Assembly: GCA_937914905.1 (NCBI GenBank)
Contig: CALESU010000132.1
Location: 1 to 9,126 of the forward strand
Length of the DNA stretch: 9,126 bases
Source of the DNA: an uncultured bacterium
GTDB taxonomy: Bacteria > Patescibacteriota > Microgenomatia > UBA1406 > GWC2-37-13
Direction of reading: 5' to 3'
The translations under genes and the position numbers were made by a program. Every line of letters begins with the position of its first letter. Position 1 is the stretch's first letter. The notes below the pieces were generated by a model. The model saw only the letters and a program-made list of their open reading frames with translations. It ran no database searches and was not told where the DNA came from. This document shows, one piece after another, positions 2,317 through 5,270 of this stretch.

Positions 2317-2345
2317 TTGACAAAATATCGAGACATGTGTATAGT
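2317..2345 (+). promoter_or_regulatory. Strong sigma70-type promoter facing rho
   Basis: TTGACA at 2317-2322 is a perfect -35. The spacer is exactly 17 bases, and TATAGT at 2340-2345 matches the -10 consensus at five of six positions. Transcription should start near 2351-2353, exactly where the long self-complementary region begins. It lies 337 bases before the rho ATG, so it drives either a separate RNA or a long rho leader. Confidence 0.75.
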
Positions 2346-2350
2346 AATGA

Positions 2351-2533
2351 TGATCCTCCAAATGAAATATCAAATTGAAATCTTTTTTGAACAAGCAATT
2401 TCTAGGGTAATCCGTCGATGAGGATCGAACGGCTATCAAGCGCTGTTTTCCGGGCAAACGTAAGTCTGCAGGAGCGCGCTCACCCATTAAACTAGAAAAA
2501 AAGATTCACACAAGAATTTCATACGGAGGATTA
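2351..2533 (+). ncRNA. Long structured RNA or rho leader element, apparently novel
   Basis: The two ends pair over their whole length on the rightward strand. TGATCCTCC (2351-2359) pairs with GGAGGATTA (2525-2533), with one G-U pair. ATGAAAT (2362-2368) pairs with ATTTCAT (2516-2522) across a 2x2 loop. After a 7x7 internal loop, TGAA-A-TCTTTTTT (2376-2388, one bulged A) pairs with AAAAAAGATTCA (2497-2508). TCTAG (2401-2405) then pairs with CTAGA (2492-2496). The head (about 2405-2485) is GC-rich in AT-rich surroundings. It contains a hairpin CCGTCGAT/ATCG-A-ACGG (2412-2432, one bulged A, GAGG loop) and the palindrome GAGCGCGCTC (2472-2481). GGT (2406-2408) and ACC (2482-2484) can close it. 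The outer G-U pair would be A-C on the other strand, which favours this strand. Size and rod shape recall 6S RNA, but no hallmark of 6S, SRP, tmRNA or a known riboswitch is visible. No U-rich terminator follows. Confidence 0.55.
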
Positions 2534-2563: not shown

Positions 2564-2685
2564 TGTTTGAACTTCTGTATTTTAGCCTTAAGAATAGTCA
2601 ATCGTTTTTTTACGACAATTGGTACAGTATCACCATTCTCATAACCAACGCTAGTTTTCCATTATTATTTTATTTTTCTTTATGA
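2563..2685 (+). CDS. Possible 40-aa rho leader peptide
   Basis: An uninterrupted 40-codon ORF begins with ATG at 2563 and ends with TGA at 2683-2685, overlapping the rho ATG as ATGA. The product starts MFELLYFSLKNSQ and ends FPLLFYFSL; it is rich in Phe, Leu, Tyr and Ser, with a hydrophobic second half. AGGGAG (2555-2560) precedes the ATG by only two bases, which is tight for an SD, so initiation may rely on the preceding TAATG overlap. Since rho has no SD of its own, coupled reinitiation from this ORF is attractive. AT-rich DNA could yield such an ORF by chance. E. coli rho also has a small upstream leader ORF, rhoL, but I see no sequence link. Confidence 0.3.
   Translation: MFELLYFSLKNSQSFFYDNWYSITILITNASFPLLFYFSL
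2620..2628 (+). promoter_or_regulatory. Possible proximal rho promoter (extended -10)
   Basis: TTGGTACAGT contains TGG directly before TACAGT (2623-2628), an extended -10 arrangement nearly identical to the TGGTACAAT before csoR. No convincing -35 is found, as is common for extended -10 promoters. A start near 2635 would give a 47-base rho leader without the structured region and would skip the start of the 40-aa ORF. Confidence 0.3.
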
Positions 2686-3992
2686 CATCTTCTGATAAGA
2701 CTGCTTATCAAGACAATCCCCAAGATGAACTTGGAGGAACTCTCGACGTATCTTCTATGCTCGACACTTATGTCGAAAAACCGATAGAAAAAATTATTCG
2801 TCCCAATGAATCGCATCTCCCCAATGAACCTCAAGGACCCAAAGAGCCCATGAGTGACAAATTAAAAGAAGATTTAAAGTCAAGCTATGAGGCAGATGGT
2901 ATTCTTGACGTCACCTATGGAGGATACGGATTTTTACGAAAAGATTACTCTGTCAATCCCGATGAAGATATTTACGTGTCAACATCTCAAATTAGAAGGT
3001 TTTGGCTCAGAAGAGGAGATCATGTAAAAGGCTTGGCTCGACCACCGAAAGATGGAGAGCGATTTCATAGCATGCTTCTCATAAAAGAAATCAATGGCAA
3101 GGAGTTGACCGAAGAAGAGAGTCGTCAGCGACACAAATTTGACTCGCTCACTTCTCTTCATCCATCTCGTCATCTTCGTCTGGAAACAGAGCAAGACTTA
3201 TTGTCCACACGCATCATTGATCTTATTGCGCCTATTGGCTTTGGTCAGCGCGCACTTATTGTTTCTCAGCCTAAAGCAGGGAAAACAACCTTTTTACGAG
3301 ATATCGCAAAGGCTGTTGCCATCAATCACCCCAAAGTGCACATGATTGCAATCCTCATTGGCGAAAGGCCCGAGGAAGTGACTGAAATTAAAAGATCTAT
3401 TGTGGGAGAGGTTGCGGCATCTCATTTTGACGAAACAGCACGTCAACAGACAAAAGTTGCCAACCTTGCGCTCGAACGAGCAAAACGCTTGGTAGAGATG
3501 GGAGAGGATGTAGTTATTCTCCTTGACTCTATCACACGCCTTGCACGAGCTTTTAATATGAGTATTACCAACTCAGGAAGAACACTCTCCGGAGGCTTTG
3601 ATCCCCAGGCACTGTATCCTGCTAAGAAATTTCTTGGCGCAGCACGCAACTGTGAAGAAGGAGGAAGTCTCACCATAATTGGAACAGCACTTGTGGGGAC
3701 AGAATCCCGGATGGATGACCTTATCTACGAAGAATTGAAGGGTACCGGAAACCTTGAGATTCATTTAGACCGAAAGTTTGCCGAAAAACGCATTTACCCA
3801 GCAGTTGATATTACGAAGTCGGGAACTCGGCATGAAGAACTTCTCTTTGATGCAGAGACCTTGAAAAGAGTAACGACATTAAGACGCATGATGGCGCTCA
3901 GAACATCTGAAGAGGGTCTCATGGCTTTTATCGACAAGCTGCCAAAGACCAAATCAAACAAAGATTTTTTGGAGACCTTACACAAGGGCTAA
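2682..3992 (+). CDS. rho: Transcription termination factor Rho
   Basis: Ring-shaped hexameric RNA/DNA helicase that loads on untranslated RNA and uses ATP to end transcription. Length is 436 aa. The cold-shock-like RNA-binding domain spans about 71-138 (GILDVTYGGYGFLR, DIYVSTSQIRRFWLR, RPPKDGER). The RecA-like ATPase has Walker A PKAGKTT (197-203), the catalytic-Glu motif GERPEEV (227-233), Walker B VVILLD (277-282), a Q-loop region SGRTLSGG, and RNCEEGGS plus KGTGN in the R-loop and subunit-contact areas. The first ~65 residues are acidic, Pro/Asn-rich and probably disordered; the helical N-terminal domain of typical Rho is not recognisable. Gly227 replaces the Asp that opens the DERPEEV motif of E. 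coli Rho. The ATG at 2682 has no SD and overlaps the stop of an upstream 40-codon ORF. No intrinsic terminator follows. csoR starts 45 bases downstream with its own promoter. Confidence 0.97.
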   Translation: MTSSDKTAYQDNPQDELGGTLDVSSMLDTYVEKPIEKIIRPNESHLPNEPQGPKEPMSDKLKEDLKSSYEADGILDVTYGGYGFLRKDYSVNPDEDIYVSTSQIRRFWLRRGDHVKGLARPPKDGERFHSMLLIKEINGKELTEEESRQRHKFDSLTSLHPSRHLRLETEQDLLSTRIIDLIAPIGFGQRALIVSQPKAGKTTFLRDIAKAVAINHPKVHMIAILIGERPEEVTEIKRSIVGEVAASHFDETARQQTKVANLALERAKRLVEMGEDVVILLDSITRLARAFNMSITNSGRTLSGGFDPQALYPAKKFLGAARNCEEGGSLTIIGTALVGTESRMDDLIYEELKGTGNLEIHLDRKFAEKRIYPAVDITKSGTRHEELLFDAETLKRVTTLRRMMALRTSEEGLMAFIDKLPKTKSNKDFLETLHKG

Positions 3993-4037: not shown

Positions 4038-4268
4038 ATGAGCGGGGTTGACATGCGAGTGAGTAGAATTTTGGGACAGGTCAAAGGTATTCAGAAAATG
4101 GTGAAGGAAGATAGGGATTGTGTGGAAATCTTGCAACAGATTTCTGCAGTAAAAAAGGCTATAGATGGCCTTACTTCAGAGATTGTAACCCAGTACTTTG
4201 ACGCGATTGTTCCCGAAGAGAAAAAAGCGGAAGTACAGAAAATGATAGATCGGACCGTCAATGTATAA
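4038..4268 (+). CDS. CsoR/DUF156-family transcriptional repressor lacking copper ligands
   Basis: A small all-helical DNA-binding regulator of the CsoR/RcnR/CstR/FrmR family, 76 aa, near the short end for the family. Diagnostic sequence: RVSRILGQVKGIQKMV (7-22) then DRDCVEILQQISAVKKAI (25-42), matching the family's R-RIEGQVRGI and CVDIL-QISAV blocks. Family members work as homotetramers that leave DNA when metals or reactive thiol species bind. Cys28 matches the first ligand (Cys36 of M. tuberculosis CsoR). By ungapped alignment, the His61 and Cys65 positions are Tyr53 and Ile57, so the Cu(I) trio is absent. The second Cys needed for CstR-type persulfide sensing is also gone. trxB starts 12 bases downstream, so they are almost surely cotranscribed; I infer regulation of trxB and possibly the genes beyond. 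No SD. M6 (4053) is an alternative start. Confidence 0.88.
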   Translation: MSGVDMRVSRILGQVKGIQKMVKEDRDCVEILQQISAVKKAIDGLTSEIVTQYFDAIVPEEKKAEVQKMIDRTVNV

Positions 4269-4280
4269 GTTGATCATTCT

Positions 4281-5270
4281 ATGAATCCAGTACTTAAGGT
4301 AGTTATTATCGGCGGAGGACCATCGGGCTTGAGTGCTGCTGTTTATAACGCACGAGCCGGGCTCGCTCCCCTTGTTCTTGCCGGATCTCCTCCCGGAGGA
4401 CAGCTCATGCTTACCACAGAGGTTGAGAACTTTCCCGGATACAAGAGTATTCTCGGGCCCGAACTGGTGCAAACACTGCGAGATCAAGCTCTTTCGTTTG
4501 GCGCGCAGATAAAAGATCAAAACGTAGTTTCTATTGACGTTACTTCTCGTCCCTTTCACATTCATACATCAAATGAAGAATATAGTGCAGAGTCCGTGAT
4601 CATTACAACAGGAGCAAAAGCACTCTGGCTTGGTCTTGAGTCCGAGGAGAGGCTCCGCGGAAAAGGAGTGTCAGCATGCGCTACATGCGATGGATTTTTT
4701 TTCAAAAATAAGACTGTGGCTGTAGTAGGAGGCGGAGATACCGCACTTGAAGAGGCGCAAACATTGAGTCGCTTTGCTAATATTGTTTACCTTTTGCATC
4801 GTCGATCCGAGTTGAGAGCCTCAAAAATAATGCAACAGCGTATTTTCGATAACAAACACATAAAGGTGATGTGGAATGTCGAAATTGCGGAGATTCTGGG
4901 GGATATGAAAGTAGAAGGAGTTCGTTTGAAAGGAACTCTTGATCCTTTTGCAGAAACCCAATTAAAGCTAGATGGAGTTTTTGTAGCAATAGGACATAAG
5001 CCAGACACCTCGGTATTTGCAGAAGGAATTCAGCTTGATGAAAAAGGATACATTCTCACCGGAGCTTCGCATGCTCTTGCCATGGCTCATACTCAAACCT
5101 TTGAAAAAACATCCTCATTCAACTTTAACTATCCATCAATGACATCAGTCCCGGGCATTTTTGCTGCAGGAGATTGTGTAGACCTTTTTTATCGACAAGC
5201 AAGTACTGCAGCGGGGATGGGCGTGGGGGCCTCTCTCGATGCTGAGCGATGGCTTATCCACGAGTCTTAA
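4281..5270 (+). CDS. trxB: Thioredoxin reductase (NADPH)
   Basis: FAD-dependent cytoplasmic enzyme that passes electrons from NADPH to thioredoxin through an active-site disulfide. Length 329 aa, slightly above the usual 305-320. Seen in order: FAD dinucleotide fold GGGPSG (11-16); GGQLMLTTEVENFPG (39-53), typical of low-molecular-weight TrxB; redox-active CATC (Cys133, Cys136) in ACATCDGFFF; NADPH fold GGGDTA (150-155) with HRRSELRA (173-180), whose arginines mark NADPH preference; and the second FAD motif PGIFAAGDC (291-299). About 20 extra residues (around 262-283) lie before that motif compared with common TrxB. Thioredoxin is not in the window. It sits 12 bases after csoR and 25 before gdhA. 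No SD; its start context CATTCTATGAATC is shared with gdhA. Confidence 0.95.
   Translation: MNPVLKVVIIGGGPSGLSAAVYNARAGLAPLVLAGSPPGGQLMLTTEVENFPGYKSILGPELVQTLRDQALSFGAQIKDQNVVSIDVTSRPFHIHTSNEEYSAESVIITTGAKALWLGLESEERLRGKGVSACATCDGFFFKNKTVAVVGGGDTALEEAQTLSRFANIVYLLHRRSELRASKIMQQRIFDNKHIKVMWNVEIAEILGDMKVEGVRLKGTLDPFAETQLKLDGVFVAIGHKPDTSVFAEGIQLDEKGYILTGASHALAMAHTQTFEKTSSFNFNYPSMTSVPGIFAAGDCVDLFYRQASTAAGMGVGASLDAERWLIHES

Follow-up and report, generated by a model that had tools for sequence, protein, structure and literature searches.

The RNA of about 180 nt that follows a near-consensus promoter is most probably a 6S RNA that has diverged strongly and gained one extra hairpin, and it would bind the housekeeping RNA polymerase as a mimic of an open promoter. 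It lies in a window (the whole stretch of DNA analysed, 9,126 nt) whose source is related to Candidatus Roizmanbacteria (Patescibacteria, Microgenomates group). This is a conserved RNA gene; that it is a 6S RNA by descent and in its working is very likely, judged from the analysis below. The RNA begins just 3′ of the promoter and is followed, 149 nt downstream, by rho, whose product is 77% identical to that of the best named relative and 87% identical to the Rho of locus L102; the ORF on its 5′ side has the opposite orientation. The features are as follows.

2317..2345, + strand: promoter TTGACA-17-TATAGT (-35 at 2317-2322, -10 at 2340-2345), 11/12 consensus positions
2351..2533, + strand: 6S-like RNA, family boundaries 2352-2532 (fold z -5.03; 71.7 bits with model R1, 65.2 bits with model R2)
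2351..2359, + strand: closing helix P1, 5′ arm (GATCCTCC), from RNAfold
2362..2371, + strand: second helix, 5′ arm (7+2 bp), from RNAfold
2376..2388, + strand: U-rich helix below the bubble, 5′ arm (4+8 bp), from RNAfold; family helix CUUUUUC/GGAAAAAG
2389..2400, + strand: central bubble, 5′ side (GAACAAGCAATT), unpaired in RNAfold; predicted template of a product RNA
2405..2407, + strand: P2 above the bubble, GGG, pairing with CCC 2483-2485; conserved pairs
2412..2432, + strand: extra hairpin P3, from RNAfold; both-sided changes in 4/4 pairs
2439..2480, + strand: hairpin P4, from RNAfold; both-sided changes in 14/15 pairs (alignment A2)
2483..2496, + strand: CCC of P2 and 3′ side of the bubble, from the sequence; its end can pair with 2401-2405 in the window
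2497..2508, + strand: U-rich helix, 3′ arm, from RNAfold
2514..2522, + strand: second helix, 3′ arm, from RNAfold
2525..2533, + strand: closing helix P1, 3′ arm (GGAGGATT), from RNAfold
2682..3992, + strand: rho (Pfam ATP-synt_ab and Rho_RNA_bind)

RNAfold gives -53.7 kcal/mol for the plus strand of 2351-2533, and 0/200 shuffles fold equally well; together with the promoter, this bears out the structured RNA 5′ of rho proposed in the preliminary description. The four nested helices described there are reproduced (9; 7+2; 4+8; 5 bp), as is the branched head. The innermost, 5-bp helix (2401-2405/2492-2496) is present in the window fold but is not common to near relatives: its letters are identical in only two of five (L102 and L033), and it is missing from the RNAalifold consensus of the window and these five near relatives (n=6). 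As to a start “exactly” at 2351, the outermost pair common to the family is 2352-2532. The minus strand folds almost as well (z -4.68); the rightward strand, also claimed earlier, is upheld by homology, with R1 scoring 71.7 bits on the plus strand versus 25.5 on the minus strand.

The closing stem joins the ends of the 181-nt RNA by a 9-bp helix, and P1 has both-sided changes in 8/8 pairs in the wider set. The 5′ side of the bubble is unpaired and conserved across the family (mean column identity 63% in 33 members, versus 46-49% for the head hairpins), and the window fold closes part of the bubble through the 5-bp helix. Above it, the GGG/CCC pairs of P2 occur in 15/15 sequences of alignment A2 and 6/6 of alignment A8. 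The head is a three-way junction, with P3 branching directly above the bubble; both P3 and P4 are backed by covariation, and P4 is the likely equivalent of the 6S apical arm.

For comparison we fetched 80 related rho loci. BLAST showed the RNA in the corresponding position in L033, L001 and L014; many further copies, of 159-210 nt and mostly 3′ of TTGACA and TATACT boxes, emerged when the upstream sequences were read. A covariance model, R1, built from 15 rho-linked RNAs matches 46/80 rho loci and the window at E ≤0.01, always upstream of rho and on the same strand; the window is in the training set of neither R1 nor R2, and the 34 loci without a match include two (L039, L040) whose contigs start inside rho. 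One R1 match in L051 (E 0.034, not upstream of rho) and the reverse-strand matches were put down to chance or to mirrored helices. Promoter matches of at least 10/12 stand at the corresponding place in 39/43 rho-linked RNAs (window counted), versus 0.7% of shuffled upstream sequences. The 109 members measure 143-211 nt (median 175); the locus sets overlap, part of L082-L111 repeating named loci (for example, L082 is L019), and L117 and L125 are near-identical.

Of the helices, RNAalifold on 37 MAFFT-aligned sequences brought out only P1 and P4 clearly, because the alignment had put P3 and the U-rich helix out of register; the structure was therefore drawn by hand for 15 sequences. In a structure-independent alignment of these, 28/46 pairs changed on both sides, versus 18.4 +/- 2.1 in shuffles. 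None of 500 shuffles reaches 28, and when the pairing partners are shifted by 1-3 columns the count is at most 18, a comparison biased in favour of the drawn structure, which came from the same 15 sequences. When 33 members of the wider set are fitted to the model, 44/46 pairs change on both sides. A covariance model of rho upstream regions and a search for covariation among relatives had both been proposed in the preliminary description; the former finds homologues, and the latter is present.

The RNA also occurs away from rho. R1 (E ≤0.01) matches 62/281 genomes of the class, and R2, a wider model of 33 sequences, matches 122/281 (E ≤0.001, one match apiece, its training genomes counted in). 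From 32 weaker R1 matches and 20 weaker R2 matches that were fetched, we took 44 loci without rho: it is found in 0/44 in the flanking DNA available, which runs to <1,500 nt downstream in 5/44. L125 and L107, outside the 44, have no rho match either, and a match to rho in L136 (23% identity, E 1e-6) was taken as another ATPase. Among the 44 loci, 26 have a same-strand tRNA-Thr gene no more than 600 nt downstream; in 23 it is tRNA-Thr(UGU), with Tyr(GUA) and Thr(GGU) often next in line. Because many copies lack a neighbouring rho and many lie 5′ of tRNA-Thr, the RNA is its own gene, with at least two usual addresses, and is not primarily a rho leader. Outside the rho-linked group, L112-L143 and L189-L208 display the order 6S-like RNA, tRNA-Thr(UGU), tRNA-Tyr(GUA), tRNA-Thr(GGU), often with tRNA-Trp(CCA).

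Structured RNAs upstream of rho are known as rho leaders, the Pseudomon-Rho motif being an example, and the RNA could likewise be the rho 5′ untranslated region, controlling Rho synthesis by attenuation or translation. We consider this unlikely. Its same-strand position upstream of rho at 46/80 related rho loci fits such a leader, as does a survey of promoters, which covered the rho-linked loci except four of the 46 (L021, L025, L035 and L036): in 41/43 loci, counting the window, no promoter in the gap between the two genes reaches the 5% level set by shuffles, so expression of rho may rest on the promoter of the RNA. Only L001 and L047, a Gottesmanbacteria locus, depart from this, L047 having a second promoter before rho that 2% of shuffles equal; in L048 and L064 such a promoter is suggestive (equalled by 8% of shuffles). 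These second promoters, the 0/44 count at other loci and the model ties to 6S RNA (below) argue against a cis-acting leader, which as a general role must be given up; unlike rho leaders, the RNA is also found away from rho and is matched by no Rfam family. Since 41/43 loci have no better-than-chance promoter between the two genes, transcription that starts at the RNA is predicted to continue into rho in Roizmanbacteria, and such co-transcription is likely.

Size, paired ends and a bubble suggested 6S RNA. Rfam 15 yields nothing at gathering score in the window, and around the RNA only weak, implausible matches up to E 10, such as snoRNA models; the claim that the RNA is undescribed thus stands as far as Rfam 15 families go. 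In L005 and L048, Rfam scans bring up either no match or weak ones to unrelated families. The 6S model RF00013 exceeds its cut-off in 0/20 class genomes that all carry the RNA, and in 0/137, 0/40 and 0/26 in further class sets. Among the 137 there is one sub-cut-off match, in G125 (42.2 bits, E 1.8e-7), a genome placed in the 40-genome set because it was already known. In G040, which is outside the R2 training set, RF00013 (38.2 bits, E 1.1e-6) and R2 (44.3 bits, E 4.1e-7) mark the same place, as does R1; in G080 RF00013 (19.9 bits, E 0.017) and R2 (37.3 bits, E 1.1e-5) again coincide. At E ≤10, RF00013 thereby agrees with R1/R2 in 1/40 genomes (G040) and 2/26 (G040, G080); weak matches in G056, G242, G187, G184, G195 and G010 (E 0.11) lie elsewhere than the R1/R2 sites.

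Across the phylum, RF00013 finds 19/286 genomes at E ≤0.001, three of them over its cut-off. On the sites so found, R1 has no match at E ≤10 and R2 only two weak ones (L167, E 0.15; L162, E 0.34). The weak members of R2 mostly do without P3 and have a bubble GGGAGG...CACCCAC, as in the RF00013-found RNAs. A third model, R3, was built from 15 hairpin-less relatives, none found by RF00013 at that place (L198, L201 and L207 were omitted from 18); it was limited to the core because a whole-RNA alignment of this set had misaligned ends. R3 recovers 19/20 RF00013-found loci (19 from the phylum and one from the class, 3/20 passing the Rfam cut-off) at the right place, 16 with E <0.01, and among matches listed up to E 5 none in these loci lies elsewhere. 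The three over the cut-off are among the weaker for R3 (E 0.17, 0.0041 and 0.03). R3 also matches hairpin-bearing members (L007, E 8.5e-5; L048; L106) and 39/286 genomes of the phylum; it matches neither the window nor Escherichia coli ssrS. The E-values of R1, R2 and R3 are rough, and the searches covered Patescibacteria, control genomes and E. coli ssrS.

Short motifs and gene order can be set beside the models. CCCAC(C/U)U occurs at the bubble in 16/20 hairpin-less members and 18/20 RF00013-found RNAs; CCCACCU is found in 0/43 rho-linked RNAs, by a search pattern that also misses E. coli ssrS. Apical CCGUGG, expected 0.3 to 0.6 times, is present in 5/43 rho-linked, 8/24 other hairpin-bearing-type, 5/20 weak-R2 and 9/20 RF00013-found RNAs, and is absent from the window. 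The RF00013-found L167 lies 5′ of tRNA-Thr(UGU)-Tyr-Thr, the same address as the R2 family, and 13/20 R3 loci of the phylum have a tRNA-Thr gene. By eye, L206:2001-2177 and L208:2001-2188 combine a CACCCACCU bubble with a P3-like extra hairpin, making them possible intermediates. The RF00013-found 6S RNAs of L153, L158, L160, L161, L162, L165 and L168 adjoin a tRNA-Pro gene.

Common descent with known 6S RNAs is very likely by these sequence comparisons, through the chain from R1 to R2 to R3 to the RF00013-found loci and not directly. Of the three options in the preliminary description, a 6S-like regulator is the one favoured, by the RF00013/R2 agreement in G040 and G080 and by the R3 recovery. 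The likeness to 6S RNA (ssrS, RF00013) extends to size, paired ends, a bubble between two arms, GGG/CCC above the bubble and the model link, and E. coli ssrS likewise precedes another same-strand gene (fau). Known 6S RNAs differ in being rods, where this RNA has the extra P3 and a three-way junction above the bubble; it also lies below Rfam detection, and its addresses are before rho or tRNA-Thr/Tyr genes. We have not filed it as an RF00013 member because, on both counts tested, its score falls below the cut-off and its shape departs from the rod. The short RF00013-found 6S RNAs of other Patescibacteria resemble it through R3 and the apical CCGUGG, but have no P3, measure 143-161 nt where fully matched and in several cases stand beside tRNA-Pro.

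The branched head, which departs from the 6S rod, would also suit a 6S-related RNA with another target, the sigma-free core of RNA polymerase. The actinobacterial Ms1 RNA binds that core and is structurally related to 6S RNA (PMC9130861). Such a target is quite improbable here: Ms1 belongs to another lineage, where it replaces 6S RNA, whereas the hairpin-less relatives here resemble ordinary 6S RNA and match RF00013. The likening to Ms1 is by description.

That the RNA is a diverged form of a different stable RNA, SRP RNA or RNase P RNA for instance, is very improbable, although both leave a vacancy. In 20 chosen Microgenomates genomes searched for SRP, RNase P and tmRNA, SRP RNA was found in 0/20 by either Rfam model (RF00169, RF01854), and RNase P RNA (bact_a) in 12/20, none over the cut-off, and in none of the eight Roizmanbacteria-type genomes (G001-G016 of the list); each is missing or very diverged where it was not found. 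Against this, the RNA itself has no SRP or RNase P match (searched to E 10 in the window and to E 5 in L005 and L048), tmRNA is a separate gene (over the cut-off in 16/20) and the chain of models leads to 6S RNA.

For a diverged 6S RNA, the mechanism can be modelled on known systems. In known 6S RNAs, according to PMC8876501, the apical arm holds a -35-like element and the 3′ side of the bubble a -10-like one; the 5′ side is the template of a product RNA, whose synthesis unwinds the lower helix and so frees the enzyme. Here the apical arm would correspond to P4, the 3′ side to the stretch that follows CCC (2483-2496), the 5′ side to 2389-2400, and the lower helix to the U-rich one (2376-2388/2497-2508). 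The central bubble would take the place of melted promoter DNA inside the polymerase and block initiation when growth falls off; the enzyme would be released once a short product RNA, templated by the 5′ side of the bubble, opens the helix below. The GG known elsewhere for product RNA, at positions 4/5 or 5/6 (PMC8414754), is not evident in the 6S-like RNA. In Roizmanbacteria, the RNA would be the first cistron before rho, with processing or incomplete termination separating it from the rho message. More tentatively, Microgenomates may have evolved a branched 6S RNA in which the extra hairpin reshapes the promoter mimic, with Roizmanbacteria joining RNA and rho under a single promoter.

Nearly all bacteria are said to have 6S RNA, a global regulator (PMC8414754). 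The open-access literature, subscription papers being outside our scope, gave no account of it in Patescibacteria, the candidate phyla radiation or CPR bacteria, and nothing relevant on a small RNA of Roizmanbacteria; “6S RNA” is also used there for an SRP RNA. The Rfam model passes its cut-off in 3/286 phylum genomes, and the new models reach 122/281 class genomes. If the 6S reading is right, Microgenomates genomes can now be annotated for the 6S-like RNA, and RNA control of the polymerase would persist in very small genomes, in branched form and with a link to rho. The branched form would then test how much of the rod 6S RNA needs, and in Roizmanbacteria one promoter would yield both a brake on transcription initiation and a termination factor.

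Elsewhere in the window, positions 1-740 are without an ORF of at least 60 aa on either strand, and at 4038-5270 a CsoR-type metal-sensing repressor domain is encoded directly 5′ of a pyridine nucleotide-disulphide oxidoreductase gene.
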